48,170 nucleotides of DNA from Chthoniobacter flavus. GTDB taxonomy: Bacteria > Verrucomicrobiota > Verrucomicrobiia > Chthoniobacterales > Terrimicrobiaceae. Under the pieces are notes generated by a model. That model saw nothing but the letters and a program-made list of their open reading frames with translations, was not told the DNA's origin and ran no database searches. The stretch covers positions 1 through 48,170 of the forward strand of contig CAMCXK010000015.1 of the NCBI GenBank assembly GCA_945883435.1, given 5' to 3'. Below, piece after piece: positions 37,669-44,860 of the stretch. The position numbers and the translations under genes were made by a program. Positions within the stretch are counted from its first letter, which is position 1; every line of letters starts with the position of its first letter.

Positions 37669-38316
37669 TTACCGATCGAGGCTGAAATTCACCGGCACTT
37701 CGACAACGCCAGGCGCCGGCAGTCCCCCGACGGTGCGTGGTTGGAACCGCCACTTCTTGACCGCGCGGAGGGCCGCTTGATCGAGCACGCCGAATCCCGA
37801 ACCGCGGGCGATCGACACCTTGGTGGCCTGCCCGGCGGGTGAGACCTCGACGCGCACAATCGTCCGGCCCTCCCAGCCTTTCTGACGGGCCAATTCGGGA
37901 TAAGCCGGCGCGGGATTGTTCAAGACCAGAGGTGCGGGAACATGGGCCGTTCGAGAGGTCTGGGGCTTGGATGACCTGGCCACGGGCTCTGGGGGGGAAT
38001 GTCTTTTGGGCGGCGCCTCTGCCACTTCCTGAATGCGTTCGGACTGCGCCTGTGGCTCGGGGAGCGGTTCCGGCACGGGCTCAACCGCAGGCTCGGGAAG
38101 TGGCACCGGTTCGGGGACCACATCTTGCGGGGGGGCGTCCATTTCCCGCGCGTCGGGCGGGGACTGTTGCTCCAGCAGAAAAATCTCGGTGGTTTCCACG
38201 GGCTGGCTCTTCCTCGGTGGAGCAAGGCGCGGCACGCCTTTTTGCAACACCCACAAATGCAACCCCAGCGAAACAGCCACCAGAGCGGGAAACAGGAACG
38301 AGGCGGCGTTTCGCAT
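37669..38316 (-). CDS. tonB: TonB family energy-transducing protein
   Basis: 215 residues. One N-terminal membrane helix (about 8-24), a Pro/Glu-rich spacer across the periplasm (about 50-125), and the TonB C-terminal domain (YPELARQKGWEGRTIVRVEVSPAGQATKVSIARGSGFGVLDQAALRAVKKWRF). It transmits the proton gradient to outer-membrane receptors. Last gene of the exbB-exbD-tonB operon. Opposite the Fur-box-flanked receptor gene, so it probably powers that receptor. Confidence 0.95.
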   Translation of the reverse strand: MRNAASFLFPALVAVSLGLHLWVLQKGVPRLAPPRKSQPVETTEIFLLEQQSPPDAREMDAPPQDVVPEPVPLPEPAVEPVPEPLPEPQAQSERIQEVAEAPPKRHSPPEPVARSSKPQTSRTAHVPAPLVLNNPAPAYPELARQKGWEGRTIVRVEVSPAGQATKVSIARGSGFGVLDQAALRAVKKWRFQPRTVGGLPAPGVVEVPVNFSLDR

Positions 38317-38328
38317 CGTGAAGCGGCT

Positions 38329-38724
38329 TCAGCGGGCGGGATCGTGAACCAGATGCAATTGCCGCGCCCCCGCGGCCCGGGCCCGGCCGATCCATTGCAG
38401 AAACAAACCATAATCGACCGACTGGTCGCCCCGGAAATGAACCGTGTCTGTGGCATTCGATTCCAATTCCCGCCGCAGAACCTGCTCGAAATCTCCGTCA
38501 CCCACCTCTGTTTCGGCGACAAAAACCCGCCCCTCGCGGTCGAGCGATACCAGGACCCTCGCGGAATCCATCACCTCTCCCGAGGCCGCCTGCGGCAGGT
38601 TCAAAGGCACCGAGGGCGGCACAAAACTGGACGTGAGCATGAAAAAAATCAGCAGCAGAAACACGACATCCAACAACGGTGCCATATCGATCGACAGGCC
38701 AGGGCGCTTGGGGCGTTGAAACAT
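38329..38724 (-). CDS. exbD: ExbD-type proton channel subunit
   Basis: 131 residues from the ATG at 38724. A single membrane helix with the essential Asp (MAPLLDVVFLLLIFFML, D19) and a small periplasmic domain. With ExbB it forms the proton-driven motor for TonB. Starts 1 nt past the exbB stop. Confidence 0.93.
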   Translation of the reverse strand: MFQRPKRPGLSIDMAPLLDVVFLLLIFFMLTSSFVPPSVPLNLPQAASGEVMDSARVLVSLDREGRVFVAETEVGDGDFEQVLRRELESNATDTVHFRGDQSVDYGLFLQWIGRARAAGARQLHLVHDPAR

Positions 38725-38725
38725 C

Positions 38726-39418
38726 TCAAGCCACCGAGTTGAAATCCCCGGCCGTCTCGGTCCGTTGCGCCAAAGTAGTGGATCCCACCGGACAGGCTGT
38801 CGAACACGAGGGTTGCAAGACGTCGTCCAGTGCCGTGACGGCCAACTCCATGCGCCGGGCGATTTTGTCGGCCACACTGTCGTAGGCGTGATACGCCGCC
38901 ATGCAAGGAATCGCCACCAGCAAGCCAAAGACCGTTGTCAGCAACGCCTCCCAAATGCCGCCTGCCAGATCCGAAGGTTTGGGCGCCCCCTGCAATCCCT
39001 CGATCCCCGCAAAGGCCACCACCATGCCGGTGACCGTTCCCAGCAATCCGACCAGCGGCGCCAAATGCGAGATCGCCGCCAGCACCCGCAAGCGCCGCTC
39101 CACCGACTCGAGCACCAGCGCCCCCGCCCGCTTCACATTGTCCACCCTCACCTTCGCAGGCCGGCCAAGATTTTCCAAATACACCTCGACCACCCGTGCC
39201 ACCGGATGCCGGCACCGCGCCGCCATCTCCCGCGCCCCGTCGATCCGCCCGGCTTCCACCTCCTTCAACACTCGATCCAACCACCGGTCGGGAGCGAAGC
39301 CATACGACAGATAGACCATCCCCCGCTCCAGAATCACCGCCACTCCTGCCACCGAAAATACCAACAACACCCACATCAGCGGCCCCCCTTTCGTCATGTA
39401 AATCGTCAAACTCTCCAT
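38726..39418 (-). CDS. exbB: ExbB/MotA/TolQ-type proton channel subunit
   Basis: 230 residues with three membrane helices. The conserved LAAISHLAPLVGLLGTVTGMVVAFAGIE and GGIWEALLTTVFGLLVAIPCMAAYHAYDSVADKIARRM segments are the TolQ/ExbB core. First gene of the tonB operon, read away from the Fur-box-like sites. Confidence 0.94.
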   Translation of the reverse strand: MESLTIYMTKGGPLMWVLLVFSVAGVAVILERGMVYLSYGFAPDRWLDRVLKEVEAGRIDGAREMAARCRHPVARVVEVYLENLGRPAKVRVDNVKRAGALVLESVERRLRVLAAISHLAPLVGLLGTVTGMVVAFAGIEGLQGAPKPSDLAGGIWEALLTTVFGLLVAIPCMAAYHAYDSVADKIARRMELAVTALDDVLQPSCSTACPVGSTTLAQRTETAGDFNSVA

Positions 39419-39460
39419 CCCGGCACCCTACAACTTCTTTTTTCCAAGTGTCAGCTCGAA

Positions 39461-39479
39461 AACGAGACTCAATCTCAAA
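39461..39479. promoter_or_regulatory. Fur-box-like inverted repeat 1
   Basis: GAGA-N5-TCTC core at 39464-39476 within AACGAGACTCAATCTCAAA. Arms of 4 bp only; it shares the GAGA/TCTC core with site 2. Confidence 0.5.
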
Positions 39480-39490
39480 ATTTGTTTGCG

Positions 39491-39509
39491 AATGAGACCG
39501 ATTCTCATT
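39491..39509. promoter_or_regulatory. Fur-box-like inverted repeat 2
   Basis: AATGAGA-N5-TCTCATT, seven-base arms perfect, the size and style of a 19-bp Fur box. It lies 16 bp left of the first possible receptor start codon. Confidence 0.65.
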
Positions 39510-39543
39510 AAAGATCGGTGGCGATATGTGTATTCGATCAACA

Positions 39544-41715
39544 ATGAAGGTGGCGGTAGCCGCTTGGGGACTGGCCATTGCGGGAGGCATGGGGGGGCTT
39601 CGGGGGCAGGAGGTGGTGGAGCAAATGCCGGAGGTGCAGGTGCGGGCCGACTACGACCGCGAGGTGCAGGGGTTTTTTTTACCGGATGTGCAGGGCACGA
39701 AAATCCACGCGGGGAAAAAAACCTCCCATATCGATCTGGAGGACCTGCCTGAGATCAGTATGGACAATTTCAGGCAAGCGATCGCAAAAACGCCTGGACT
39801 GGTGCTGGCGGAGGAAAGTTCGCCATTGGTGAGCATCGGCTACCGGGGCTTCAACCCGCACCGCATGATGTTCCTGCAAGTGCTTGAGGACGGGATTCCA
39901 ATTCATGCGGACATGTATGGCTATGCGGAGTCCTACTACACGCCTCCTTTGGATGCGGTGGAGAGCATCGAGTTTGTGCGCGGCGGCGCGGCCCTCATGT
40001 ATGGACCGCAGCCGGCGGGGGCCATGAATTTTCTCATGAAAAAACCGCCGCTCGACACACCGTTCGAGCTGCAATCGACCAACATCATCGGCAGCTTCGA
40101 TCTGTATTCAAATTTCACCTCTTTTGGAGGCACGGTGGGCCGGTTTGGATATTCGGGCTACTACGACCACCAGCAAACCGACGGCTTCCGCGCGGCCAAC
40201 AGCGATTTTTTCCTGAACGCCTGGGGAGGCACGTTCGCGCTGGATGCCACAGGACCGCTGCGCACCTACCTGAATGTGACAGCATATGACGAGACGCATG
40301 GCGAACCGGGCGGAACAACACTGGCGAAGGGCCCGAATGCGGTGAACTACGACACCGACCGGTTTGGCACGTCGCGCTTCCACGACCGGATGCGCATCAG
40401 CCGTTACGCGGTGTCGCTCATCAACGAGTGGGATGTCTCCGAGACCACGCTGGCGACGTTTCGCACCTGGTGGACGTATTACCAGCGTTTCAGCCGGCGG
40501 CAAAACGGCGGGGGATTCGGCACCCTGCCCACCGGCCCCGCAAGCCGCACCAATCAGATCGAGAACCAGCAATTCTACAACTTCGGGTTCGAGCCCCGCC
40601 TCAGCCACAACTGGGAATGGCTCGACAACACACACACGTTCGCCGGGGGCATGCAGTTTTACTACAACTGGTCGCCGATGCTTCAGCAGCAGGGGAACTC
40701 GCCCACCGCCACGAGCGGCTCGACAGTCAACCAAAGCAACCGTGAAAGCGTGTCCTACAGCCTGTTTGCTGAAAACCTCTTTCAATTCGGCCAATTCTCG
40801 ATCACGCCGGGCTTCCGGCTGGAAAACATTTGGCAAAGCGTCAACGAGTTGGTGAACCGCAGCTCCTTCCAGACCGGTGCCCCCCTGCAGGACGAGACGC
40901 TTTACAACTTTGCGCCGCTTTTTGGCCTCGGCCTGGAATACGAATTCACGCCCGAGGTGGCGATTTACGCCAACGTCTCGCAAGCCTACCGCCCCCCGTT
41001 TTTCACCCAAGCCGTGCCCGTCAACCCGAACACCCGTGTGGCCGGCAACCTTCAGGAGGCCACCATCGTGAACTACGAAGTCGGCTTTCAAGGCACGCCC
41101 AAATCCTGGCTCACTTGGGACACCAGCTTTTTCCTGATCGACAATTCCGACCAGATCGGCACCCGCGGTGTCAACGAGGGGCCGATCACAACCGTGATCG
41201 AAAATGCGGGCCGCTCGGTTGTTTACGGTTGGGACCTCTTTGCCGAGGTGGATTTCGTGGGTCTTGCCGAGGAATATGGTCGCCCTGCACGCACGCCGGC
41301 CGCGCCGGGAAGCTGGGTGGACCGCTATGGATCACTCGCCGCATTCACCGCCCTCACCCTGCAAAGCGGTCAATTCATCAACGGGCCCTTCGAAGGAAAA
41401 ACTCCGCAATACCTTTCCGACTACGTGCTGCGGTTCGGCCTCACCTACAATTGGCAGGACCGCCTGAAACTTGCCCTGCTTGGCAACTTCAACGGGGCCA
41501 CTTATGCCGACGACAACAACTCCGGCCGGTTTTTCATCCCCGCCTACAATGTGTGGGATTTCACAGCCGAAGCCAAAGTCTGGCGGGACAACGTGAGCCT
41601 CATCGCGGGCATCAACAATCTCTTCGGCGCGCAATACTACGCCCGCATCCGGTCCGACGGCATCGACCCCGCCGCGCCCACCAACTGGTATGCCGGCGTG
41701 AAAGTGGAATTCTAA
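39544..41715 (+). CDS. TonB-dependent outer-membrane receptor (iron-siderophore type)
   Basis: 723 residues from the ATG at 39544, where a good signal peptide starts (1-22); ATG 39526 would add six residues. Plug domain about 40-165 with VSIGYRGFNPHRMMFLQVLEDGIPIHADMYGYAESYYTPPLDAVESIEFVRGG and GPQPAGAMNFLMKKP, as in FecA-like ferric-citrate/siderophore receptors. The rest is a 22-strand barrel ending in the aromatic KVEF. It imports a large ligand across the outer membrane with TonB energy. Fur-box-like sites in front suggest repression by iron. Followed by an ABC transporter in the same direction. Confidence 0.93.
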   Translation: MKVAVAAWGLAIAGGMGGLRGQEVVEQMPEVQVRADYDREVQGFFLPDVQGTKIHAGKKTSHIDLEDLPEISMDNFRQAIAKTPGLVLAEESSPLVSIGYRGFNPHRMMFLQVLEDGIPIHADMYGYAESYYTPPLDAVESIEFVRGGAALMYGPQPAGAMNFLMKKPPLDTPFELQSTNIIGSFDLYSNFTSFGGTVGRFGYSGYYDHQQTDGFRAANSDFFLNAWGGTFALDATGPLRTYLNVTAYDETHGEPGGTTLAKGPNAVNYDTDRFGTSRFHDRMRISRYAVSLINEWDVSETTLATFRTWWTYYQRFSRRQNGGGFGTLPTGPASRTNQIENQQFYNFGFEPRLSHNWEWLDNTHTFAGGMQFYYNWSPMLQQQGNSPTATSGSTVNQSNRESVSYSLFAENLFQFGQFSITPGFRLENIWQSVNELVNRSSFQTGAPLQDETLYNFAPLFGLGLEYEFTPEVAIYANVSQAYRPPFFTQAVPVNPNTRVAGNLQEATIVNYEVGFQGTPKSWLTWDTSFFLIDNSDQIGTRGVNEGPITTVIENAGRSVVYGWDLFAEVDFVGLAEEYGRPARTPAAPGSWVDRYGSLAAFTALTLQSGQFINGPFEGKTPQYLSDYVLRFGLTYNWQDRLKLALLGNFNGATYADDNNSGRFFIPAYNVWDFTAEAKVWRDNVSLIAGINNLFGAQYYARIRSDGIDPAAPTNWYAGVKVEF

Positions 41716-41738
41716 CCCTTGGCAACCCCGATACCGAG

Positions 41739-42656
41739 ATGCACTCTTCGTTCATGAAATCCCACACGGCCCGCCGCCCGTTGGTCCCGCTTCTGAAAAC
41801 ACTCGCGCGAGCCTGTGTTTTGGCCGCGGCGCTTTTCCCCGCGTTGGCGGCCCATCCATTGCCGGAATCCGTGGTGATCGCTCTGAAGCCGGACAAAAAT
41901 CCCGACAAAATGCTGGCGGAGCGCGAGGGCCTGTCCGCCGCCTTGGGAAAAATTCTGGGACGGCCGGTGAGGGTGATTGTGCCATTGTCGGCGACGGTCA
42001 TCATCGAAGGCTTGGCAAACGGCTCGATCGATCTTGGCTGGTTGAGCGCGACCGACATGGTGCGGGCCCGCGACGCCGGTGCGGCCGATCTCTTGCTGGT
42101 GGGCGAGATCGACGGGCGTCGCGACTACTCGAGCCTCTGGCTGTGTCTGGCGGACAAGCCTTACGAATCCATCAAGGATTTGCGCGGCAAACCGGTGGCA
42201 TTTGCCAGTCTCACCAGCACCTCCGGTCATTTGATTCCCCGGCTGGATCTCAAAAAGCAGGGCTTGATCCAACGCGATCCGGCGGAGTTTTTCGGTGCGG
42301 GAAATGTCTGGTTCGGGACCGGTTACATGAGTGCTGTCGAGCGTGTGCTCTCAGGCGAAGCGGAGGCGGCGGCCGTGAGCGATTACGTGTTCGAAAAAGA
42401 CCAATACATGACACCCGGGCAAAAGGCCCGGGTCCGCATCCTTGCCCGCCAAGGCCCGGTGCCTACGCATGTCATGGCGGTCTCCGCCCGCCTCGATGCG
42501 GCCGCCCGCGAATCTCTGCGGGACGCCCTGTTGAAGTTCACCGCTTCCGGTTCGCCACTGTGCGAGGCCGTGTTCACCTCCCCGCTTGTTCCTGCCGATG
42601 CGACCGCACACCTCCAGCCGATCGTCGAAGCGCTGGCCATCCTCCCGCCTCCATGA
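41739..42656 (+). CDS. PhnD-like periplasmic binding protein
   Basis: 305 residues from the ATG at 41739 (in-frame ATG at 41754 also possible). Signal peptide about 1-38. The mature part follows the phosphate/phosphonate-binding (PhnD) fold: PLSATVIIEGLANGSIDLGWLSATDMVRA, LRGKPVAFASLTSTSGHLIPRLDLKKQG and GYMSAVERVLSGEAEAAAVSDYVFEK. The real ligand is unknown; PhnD-like proteins also serve other anions. Starts 23 nt after the receptor stop and overlaps the ATPase gene by 4 nt. Confidence 0.87.
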   Translation: MHSSFMKSHTARRPLVPLLKTLARACVLAAALFPALAAHPLPESVVIALKPDKNPDKMLAEREGLSAALGKILGRPVRVIVPLSATVIIEGLANGSIDLGWLSATDMVRARDAGAADLLLVGEIDGRRDYSSLWLCLADKPYESIKDLRGKPVAFASLTSTSGHLIPRLDLKKQGLIQRDPAEFFGAGNVWFGTGYMSAVERVLSGEAEAAAVSDYVFEKDQYMTPGQKARVRILARQGPVPTHVMAVSARLDAAARESLRDALLKFTASGSPLCEAVFTSPLVPADATAHLQPIVEALAILPPP

Positions 42657-43351
42657 CCGAGCCCCAACTCCGCATCCAAGGCTTGGGCGTCGAACGCCAA
42701 GGGCGCCCGGTTCTCCAGGATCTCGATTTGAGCCTGCCCCGTGGCAGCTTTGTCTCGGTCGAGGGACGCTCGGGCGTGGGGAAGACCAGTCTTCTGTCTT
42801 GCTTGGCGGGTCTTCTCGAACCATCCCGCGGCCGTATTTCCTACCGCTGCCTGCAAGGCTGCGAACACTCTCCGGGCGAGTTTCGCCAACGCCTCGGCTG
42901 CGTCTTCCAGCATTTTGCCCTGAGTCCCAATGCCAGCGTTCAAACCAATGTGCTTTGCGGTCTCCTCGGCCGCCACTCGTCTTTCCGCACGCTGTTCGGA
43001 TTTCCTGCGGCTGACCAGCGCCTTGCGCTCGATCTTTTGGAAAAACTCGGTCTCGCCGGCCTCGCGTCCCGACCGGTCGCCCGGATCTCCGGCGGGGAGC
43101 GCCAACGCACGGCCGTCGCCCGGGCCCTCATCTCGAATCCCGAATGCCTTCTCGCCGACGAACCGGTCTCGAACCTCAATCCCGACCTGGCCCGCCAGGT
43201 TCTCGGGTTGCTCAAATCCCACTGTGCCGCCGCCCGCTGCACCGTCATTTGCGCCCTGCATGATCCCGAGTTGTGCGAGGAATTCGCCGATGTGCGCCTT
43301 CGGCTGCGCGGAGGCCGCGATTGGGAACTCACCGCCCGCTCGACTCCGTGA
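42653..43351 (+). CDS. PhnC-like ABC transporter ATPase
   Basis: 232 residues from the ATG at 42653. Walker A GRSGVGKTS, signature ISGGERQRTAVARAL, Walker B CLLADEP, and VSNLNPD with ALHDPEL as the switch histidine. The VSNLNPDLARQVLG type D-loop region is PhnC-like (SLDP/NLNP). Drives import with the permease encoded next; 4-nt overlaps on both sides show strict coupling. Confidence 0.9.
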   Translation: MTEPQLRIQGLGVERQGRPVLQDLDLSLPRGSFVSVEGRSGVGKTSLLSCLAGLLEPSRGRISYRCLQGCEHSPGEFRQRLGCVFQHFALSPNASVQTNVLCGLLGRHSSFRTLFGFPAADQRLALDLLEKLGLAGLASRPVARISGGERQRTAVARALISNPECLLADEPVSNLNPDLARQVLGLLKSHCAAARCTVICALHDPELCEEFADVRLRLRGGRDWELTARSTP

Positions 43352-44121
43352 AGCCGCCGCGTCTGGATGCTCCCCGGGTGGCCTGCCTGCTCTTACTACT
43401 CGCCGTCCTTGTCTCCCTTCCGGTGCTCCAGCCTCCGGGGCGCGAACTCGACTATGCCGCCAATCTGGCCCGCTTTCTCACCCGCTTTTGGCCACCCGAT
43501 TTTTCCGTCTTGCCCGCGATCCTTCCTTCGCTGGTCGAAACATTTCAAATGGCTGTTCTTGCAACGGTTCTGGCGTGCCTCGTGGGCATCCCGGTGGCCG
43601 CCGCGGCATCGCACAACATCGCCCCCCGCCCGGTGGTGGCCATGGTGCGCCTTTTTCTGAACAGCATTCGCTCGATTCCCGGCCTCATTTGGGCATTGAT
43701 TGCCGTTGCCGTCCTCGGAGCCAATGCCGGGGCGGGGGTAGCCGCCTTGGCGATCTACTCGCTCGGCTACCTGGGAAAATTCTTCAGCGACGCCTTTGAA
43801 AGCGCCGATCCCGCCGTGAGCCAGGCCCTTCGTGCCGGGGGAGCCTCGCGCATCCAAGCCTTTCAATACGGCATCTGGCCCCATGCCGCACCGCTTGCCT
43901 GGAGCCATACCCTCTGGATGCTCGAATACAATATCCGCTCGGCTTCGATCGTAGGCTACGTGGGAGCCGGTGGCATCGGCGCCTGGTTGCACACCTACCA
44001 GGAATTCTATCAATGGGACAAATTCGCCGCCGTGCTCACGTGCATCCTTGCGGCAGTCATCCTTCTCGACCTCGGCGGCTCCCGCCTCCGCCGCACCCTC
44101 GCGCCGACGGCCATGGCTTAG
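43348..44121 (+). CDS. PhnE-like ABC transporter permease
   Basis: 257 residues from the GTG at 43348, overlapping the ATPase stop (GTGA). Six membrane helices; the first at about 12-27. The cytoplasmic EAA-like loop GGASRIQAFQYGIWPHAAP contacts the ATPase, and FLNSIRSIPGLIWAL and VGYVGAGGIGAWL are PhnE/MetI-type segments. A single permease gene suggests a homodimer. Confidence 0.9.
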   Translation: MKPPRLDAPRVACLLLLLAVLVSLPVLQPPGRELDYAANLARFLTRFWPPDFSVLPAILPSLVETFQMAVLATVLACLVGIPVAAAASHNIAPRPVVAMVRLFLNSIRSIPGLIWALIAVAVLGANAGAGVAALAIYSLGYLGKFFSDAFESADPAVSQALRAGGASRIQAFQYGIWPHAAPLAWSHTLWMLEYNIRSASIVGYVGAGGIGAWLHTYQEFYQWDKFAAVLTCILAAVILLDLGGSRLRRTLAPTAMA

Positions 44122-44314: not shown

Positions 44315-44860
44315 ATGAAAAAACTCACACTCGCACTCCTCACCGTTGCTATCACTGCCACGGGAGCCTTTGCCGGCTCCGGGAAGACGTTTAAAGAAGT
44401 CGTCACTGTCGTGACCGATGATTGCGCCTTCCGCGCCAATGAACTTCAAGTGGACGCGTTTGCCTCCGCTTTGTTCTACAACTCGGGTCGTCCGGGTTGG
44501 GGCGGTGGTCTCGGCATCAACTACTTCCTCACCGAATACATCGGTATCGGTCTCGAGCAAGGTATTGACGGCCGTGAATCCTCCGGCGGTTCCTCCTCCT
44601 ATGCGGAGTGGACCACGATCGGTAACATCTTCCTCCGTTACCCCATCTGCTCGCTCAACCTCGCTCCCTACGGCCTCGTCGGCGGTGGCGCCGGTTACGC
44701 AGCCAACAAATCCGGTCACGGCTTCGGCCATGTCGGTGGTGGTCTCGAGTATCGTGTGACCGACAATATCGGCCTCTTCTCCGATGCCCGCTACGCTTAC
44801 TCCTCGGAGGAGCCGAAAACCGCCGTTATCGGCCGTGCTGGCGTGCGTTTCGCATTCTAA
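44315..44860 (+). CDS. Small outer-membrane beta-barrel protein
   Basis: 181 residues from the ATG at 44315. Signal peptide 1-20 (KKLTLALLTVAITATGAFA). Alternating strands with aromatic girdle residues (GWGGGLGINYFLTEYIGIGLEQG, VGGGLEYRVTDNIGLFSDARYAY) end in AGVRFAF, a C-terminal Phe typical of barrels of the OmpA/OmpW size. Codons are strongly biased to C-ending forms, hinting at high expression. No Shine-Dalgarno is seen; the leader before the ATG is A-rich. The function is unknown. Confidence 0.8.
   Translation: MKKLTLALLTVAITATGAFAGSGKTFKEVVTVVTDDCAFRANELQVDAFASALFYNSGRPGWGGGLGINYFLTEYIGIGLEQGIDGRESSGGSSSYAEWTTIGNIFLRYPICSLNLAPYGLVGGGAGYAANKSGHGFGHVGGGLEYRVTDNIGLFSDARYAYSSEEPKTAVIGRAGVRFAF

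Follow-up and report, generated by a model that had tools for sequence, protein, structure and literature searches.

A Fur-type paired box joins TonB-ExbB-ExbD genes to a FecA-like receptor and a PhnDCE-type ABC transporter in Chthoniobacter flavus: a candidate ferric-chelate importer

The window analysed here, a stretch of 48,170 nucleotides, is contig 15 of a 2.84 Mb Chthoniobacter flavus genome that is 97.6% complete. Two gene sets diverge within it, one running leftward from 39418 and the other rightward over 39526-44121. The leftward set, on the minus strand, comprises an exbB-like gene (38726-39418, 230 aa; Pfam MotA_ExbB, E 3.1e-26), an exbD-like gene (38329-38724; Pfam ExbD, E 1.3e-24), whose frame runs to 38742 with the likely ATG at 38724, and a tonB-like gene (37669-38316, 215 aa; Pfam TonB_C, E 1.4e-23). 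The rightward set, on the plus strand, begins with a FecA-like TonB-dependent receptor (39526-41715, 729 aa; Pfam TonB_dep_Rec_b-barrel and Plug) and continues with a PhnD-like periplasmic binding protein (41739-42656, 305 aa; Pfam Phosphonate-bd, E 2.2e-47), a PhnC-like ATPase (42653-43351, 232 aa) and a PhnE-like permease (43348-44121, 257 aa, GTG start). The last three genes overlap by four bases at each junction (ATGA at phnD/phnC, GTGA at phnC/phnE). This is the arrangement that the initial annotation had described, and every gene lies where it had been placed. No sigma-70 promoters were found by consensus, and terminator-like matches were fewer than expected by chance. A small beta-barrel protein of the outer membrane (weak OMP_b-brl match) is encoded just 3' of the phnE-like gene, at 44315-44860; nothing matching it was seen at the loci of relatives, and it was therefore left out of the operon.

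The 107-bp gap between the gene sets contains two TGAGA-N5-TCTCA palindromes, 30 bp apart from start to start, as expected from an earlier report of two inverted repeats in Fur-box style. The box on the exbB side (39461-39479, AACGAGACTCAATCTCAAA) is the weaker, matching 9/10 core positions, and is likewise one of a pair in relatives; the box on the receptor side (39491-39509, AATGAGACCGATTCTCATT) matches 10/10 and has perfect 7+7 arms. Allowing at most one mismatch, the core occurs exactly twice in the whole 48 kb window, both times in this gap, with 0.76 occurrences expected by chance. The classical 19-bp E. coli Fur consensus has no match in the window, even at three mismatches, so the family-specific core TGAGA-N5-TCTCA was used instead.

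To judge these predicted boxes we scored the regions upstream of 27 receptor or phnD genes over the ten core positions. A core of 9/10 or better is present in 19 of 19 upstream regions from families f1, f7, f12, f13 and locus L005, so that the refuting case of unconserved inverted repeats did not arise, and the best site in these regions is equalled in 0-3% of other windows from the same loci. Two f21 genomes have a box scoring 9, genomes G076 and G317 one scoring 8, and in the same scoring no box was found upstream of phnD for four f11 genes. The f11 genomes (L032, L033, L035, L037), which have no such box before phnD, also give no FeoB match. The box is usually doubled, with its copies 25-33 bp apart (mean 30.5 bp, sd 1.8), and this spacing is the same in receptor-phnDCE loci outside f11 and in receptor loci that lack phnDCE. 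Where phnDCE stands alone (G093, G096, G103, L005), and also before phnD of G092, a box lies 16-31 bp ahead of the phnD start. Conservation in related genomes is the strongest evidence that the predicted boxes are real.

The same box also precedes genes of recognised iron function. In the C. flavus genome itself, paired boxes, again 30 bp apart, stand ahead of a same-strand run with heme oxygenase and HmuTUV, which holds the heme oxygenase, an HmuT-like binding protein, a FecCD permease and an ATPase, with three other genes between the double box and the heme oxygenase. In order, the run (L039, G000:C75, 2153-8364) encodes a PEP-CTERM protein, one with no Pfam match, one that resembles prepilins, then heme oxygenase and HmuT-, HmuU- and HmuV-like proteins; it may be an operon for heme uptake that includes surface proteins and lacks a receptor gene. 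In two relatives (G196, G207) a single box lies before FeoAB, a FeoA-FeoB fusion for Fe(II) transport, adjoining the receptor locus; in G196 a FUR-family gene is also found there. Because the box thus precedes independent iron genes, both FeoAB and heme oxygenase-HmuTUV, Fur-type control is the best reading, and for the receptor-phnDCE locus it is strongly supported by these sequence patterns. The box itself is conserved across genera and families. That Fur itself is the regulator acting on the predicted boxes is what we infer; the genome contains three FUR-family genes, one of which (L044, G000:C30:7328-7603) lies just ahead of ORFs that by eye read as SufC and SufB of iron-sulphur assembly. 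Near matches to the box elsewhere in this genome (C8:3005, C17:15915, C45:3883) were set aside as chance occurrences, the ORFs there having been read and no clear iron genes recognised.

The receptor consists of a plug and a barrel, probably starts at an ATG near 39544 and has no N-terminal signalling domain that we could find. When a profile of 11 orthologs was compared with solved structures, the best relative was FecA, the ferric dicitrate receptor (E 5.7e-30, aligned over about 550 residues), followed by a next best at 3e-10; membership of a phosphonate receptor family, which would have pointed elsewhere, was not seen. The receptor falls well below the curated FecA equivalog cut-off (54 bits against 1100) and is therefore best called FecA-like, with no proven citrate specificity; its score for NCBIfam TonB-siderophor is also under the cut-off (129 bits against 223.5). 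Invariant Arg321 aligns with FecA Arg365, a citrate contact, and the other citrate contacts of FecA are without clear conservation. It is the single Plug-domain receptor found in this genome.

The transporter genes vary in how closely they resemble the curated phosphonate families. The PhnE-like permease passes its family cut-off (TIGR01097, 238 against 216.7 bits). The PhnD-like protein exceeds the cut-off of TIGR01098 (123 bits) and scores 104 bits for the PhnD equivalog, below the cut-off of 261, and the PhnC-like ATPase, with TIGR02315 as its best match, reaches 167 bits, below the PhnC cut-off of 266. The nearest solved proteins to the PhnD-like protein are the PtxB phosphite binders, and its closest solved relatives together bind phosphite, phosphonate and arsenic oxyanions. 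An AlphaFold model built from five sequences (mean pLDDT 55.7) was too poor for inspection of the pocket, and our statements about it rest for this reason on alignment to the solved phosphite proteins, with the contacts of Te_PtxB (PMC5700983) transferred by hand. The STS oxyanion motif of Te_PtxB, Ser130-Thr131-Ser132, corresponds to Ser160-Thr161-Ser162, which is invariant in the PhnD-like family, as are the equivalents of Tyr100 and Asp22 (Tyr130 and Asp52). Tyr55 is replaced by Ala, Ser or Gly, His160 by invariant Gly195, and Tyr208, the capping residue needed for phosphite affinity (PMC5700983), by invariant His244. Of the PtxB-type phosphite pocket set of Tyr55, STS, His160 and capping Tyr208, the STS is kept. 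The alignment predicts a roomier pocket that would still grip an oxyanion, in which the introduced His, with Asp52 and Tyr130, could act as a metal ligand. With the anion-binding STS motif preserved, the substrate may still be a phosphorus oxyanion.

The linkage of this transporter to the receptor recurs well beyond the present genome. The relatives compared were Verrucomicrobiota MAGs, one of them labelled Terrimicrobiaceae, and the PhnD-like protein is present in 13 of the 213 genomes of the order. The complete order, receptor-phnD-phnC-phnE with divergent exb/tonB, is kept in G092 and G095 of the same genus, G080 of another genus and G049 of another family. In f11 the receptor is linked to phnDCE in G132, G135 and G138, in varying orientation, and to phnE at a contig end in G144. 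The search for this gene order in other genomes has thus returned it from several genera and families, with the boxes conserved outside f11. A scan of 388 genomes across the phylum with the family profile recovered only five members, all at E below 1e-113, and nothing weaker down to the limit of 1e-40; the lack of intermediate matches marks the PhnD-like family as a distinct clade. Three of these members were new and came from other families of the same class. In one, G317, phnDCE follows directly on fragments of a different TonB receptor.

Several individual loci differ from this pattern. The fragmented receptor of G317 (L121, 6422-8591; frames of 171, 117 and 104 aa, upstream of phnDCE) has a Plug domain in its start fragment, looks unlike the FecA-like receptor and is preceded by the palindrome TGATACTCAGTATCA. 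G093 and G103 possess phnDCE and have no receptor match at E 1e-60. In G092 (L003, 4721-6977) two overlapping frames make up the receptor gene, through a frameshift or an error of assembly, and the frame of phnE seems disturbed as well. G099 (L091, L092), a near relative of the G095 locus, has the receptor, exb/tonB and the paired boxes with no phnDCE after the receptor, and comparison with G095 is a clean case of phnDCE gain or loss between near relatives.

Our iron-gene search covered FeoB, FTR1, Nramp and FecCD. It found no FeoB, FTR1 or Nramp in the C. flavus genome and one strong FecCD permease, that of the heme run. For genomes whose receptor ortholog is full-length (E of roughly 1e-150 or lower, which omits the weaker-scoring G012 and G013), FeoB is found in 16 of the 17 that lack phnDCE and in 3 of the 11 that carry it (Fisher p = 0.0004, uncorrected for ancestry). 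Within family f1, at 90% completeness or more, the corresponding counts are 10/12 and 1/5 (p = 0.03, likewise uncorrected for ancestry), and the difference shrinks (p = 0.08) once the receptor threshold is relaxed. Four f1 genomes (G000, which is the present one, G092, G093 and G080) have no FeoB; phnDCE and FeoB are found together in G095, G096, G103, G049 and G076. The distribution agrees with a role of phnDCE as substitute for FeoB behind the receptor.

We consider it probable that the locus encodes an importer of ferric chelates under Fur control, in which a PhnDCE-type ABC transporter performs the inner-membrane step, with the substrate assigned by inference. The chief rival retains the receptor as an importer of a ferric chelate and has PhnDCE import, under iron control, either the small anion set free, such as citrate or phosphate, or a phosphorus nutrient in demand at low iron, the iron itself entering by another importer. 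The invariant STS motif, the oxyanion-binding habits of the nearest solved relatives and the presence of FeoB in several phnDCE genomes all speak for such a role. Nevertheless, we judge it rather unlikely, given the four f1 genomes without FeoB, the additional lack of FTR1 and Nramp and the single strong FecCD in the C. flavus genome, the loss of two pocket residues of the phosphite proteins, the His and one Tyr, and the iron box directly before stand-alone phnDCE. Import of a phosphonate-bearing siderophore, the other substrate first suggested for this locus, would account for the presence, in an operon under iron control, of a binding protein and a permease from the phosphonate family. It has gained no positive support, the invariant STS motif notwithstanding, and appears very improbable: the search for genes of phosphonate breakdown covered phnJ of C-P lyase, which was found in 0 of 22 genomes, and the neighbourhood of the operon in relatives showed no recognisable phosphonate genes.

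The receptor might alternatively be mainly the outer-membrane gate of the organism's own heme system, with PhnDCE riding along, since no second Plug-domain receptor was found and the heme oxygenase-HmuTUV run lies under the same double box. However, orthologs occur in G092, G095, G080, G090 and G091, all without a strong FecCD/Hmu permease, and a heme-only role is for that reason unlikely; moreover, the receptor is FecA-like, unlike heme receptors, and is linked to phnDCE rather than to hmu, so that we regard this explanation as quite improbable. Control by another FUR-family regulator, responding to zinc or manganese, with a different metal as substrate, could be imagined from the three FUR-family genes and from a box centre that deviates from the E. 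coli consensus. The box stands before FeoAB and heme oxygenase-HmuTUV runs, however, both of iron function, and this explanation seems to us highly improbable. Of the two options originally proposed, adaptation of a PhnD-type transporter to an iron chelate is the better fit to a FecA-type receptor, a frequently missing FeoB where phnDCE is present and an altered phosphite pocket.

Gene order and its co-conservation, box conservation, regulon membership, the relationship to FecA and the importer pattern, all established computationally, can be brought together in a model for the ferric-chelate importer, in which the receptor cargo, the PhnD ligand and all transport are proposed. At low iron Fur would leave the paired boxes, and the divergent promoters would then yield the TonB-ExbB-ExbD motor and the receptor-PhnD-PhnC-PhnE operon. 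Fe(III) as a small chelate of citrate or phosphate type would enter the periplasm through the FecA-like receptor. There the PhnD-type protein would capture the iron, in the form of Fe(III) bound along with an oxyanion or still within the small chelate, and PhnE and PhnC would move it across the inner membrane, a task that elsewhere falls to FeoB or FecBCDE. A bolder version, which we advance tentatively and would not yet favour, is that the PhnDCE clade is a true iron importer over several Verrucomicrobiota families, its PhnD binding Fe(III) jointly with an oxyanion by way of the STS motif and the invariant His, Asp and Tyr, and replacing FeoB behind the FecA-like receptor.

Each part of this system resembles something known. 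Like FecA-FecBCDE of E. coli it has a FecA-like, TonB-driven receptor and a Fur-type box, but PhnDCE takes the place of adjoining FecB/FecCD and the receptor lacks a detectable N-terminal signalling domain. It shares with the PhnCDE phosphonate and PtxABC phosphite importers the ABC family, the invariant STS motif and a PhnE over its cut-off; it differs from them in PhnD and PhnC scores well under the equivalog cut-offs, in its Fur-type boxes, in the absence of C-P lyase, and in the exchange of pocket His for Gly and capping Tyr for His. In FbpABC systems the periplasmic protein binds Fe(III) along with a synergistic anion, and import of the iron is by an ABC transporter. The logic proposed here is similar (a receptor strips or imports iron, followed by a binding protein and ABC import), although the binding protein is of another family and its iron binding is presumed. 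Iron-phosphate clusters of Acidithiobacillus and Leptospirillum, in which TonB receptors and Fur boxes adjoin phosphate/phosphonate genes and uptake of iron as a phosphate chelate has been proposed, contain phosphatases, C-P lyase genes and an MFS transporter, with no PhnDCE ABC transporter seen behind a receptor there (PMC2631029). A Fur-regulated receptor-PhnDCE operon was not found described in the open-licence literature, which is weak evidence of absence. Known parts stand here in a combination for which that literature gave no description, with a plausible change of substrate.

Binding proteins of the PhnD family usually receive the annotation of phosphonate importer, and environmental surveys score them among the genes for phosphorus scavenging; such labels would mislead if the clade described here carries iron. 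The invariant His and the lost pocket residues make the change of pocket use directly testable, and if correct it would be an example of an oxyanion-binding pocket turned to metal capture. Overall, the proposed system would explain iron uptake in bacteria that have neither FeoB nor siderophore permeases, and would represent a new bacterial route for iron uptake, in Verrucomicrobiota, that joins a FecA-like gate to a transporter of the phosphonate/phosphite family under the control of Fur.
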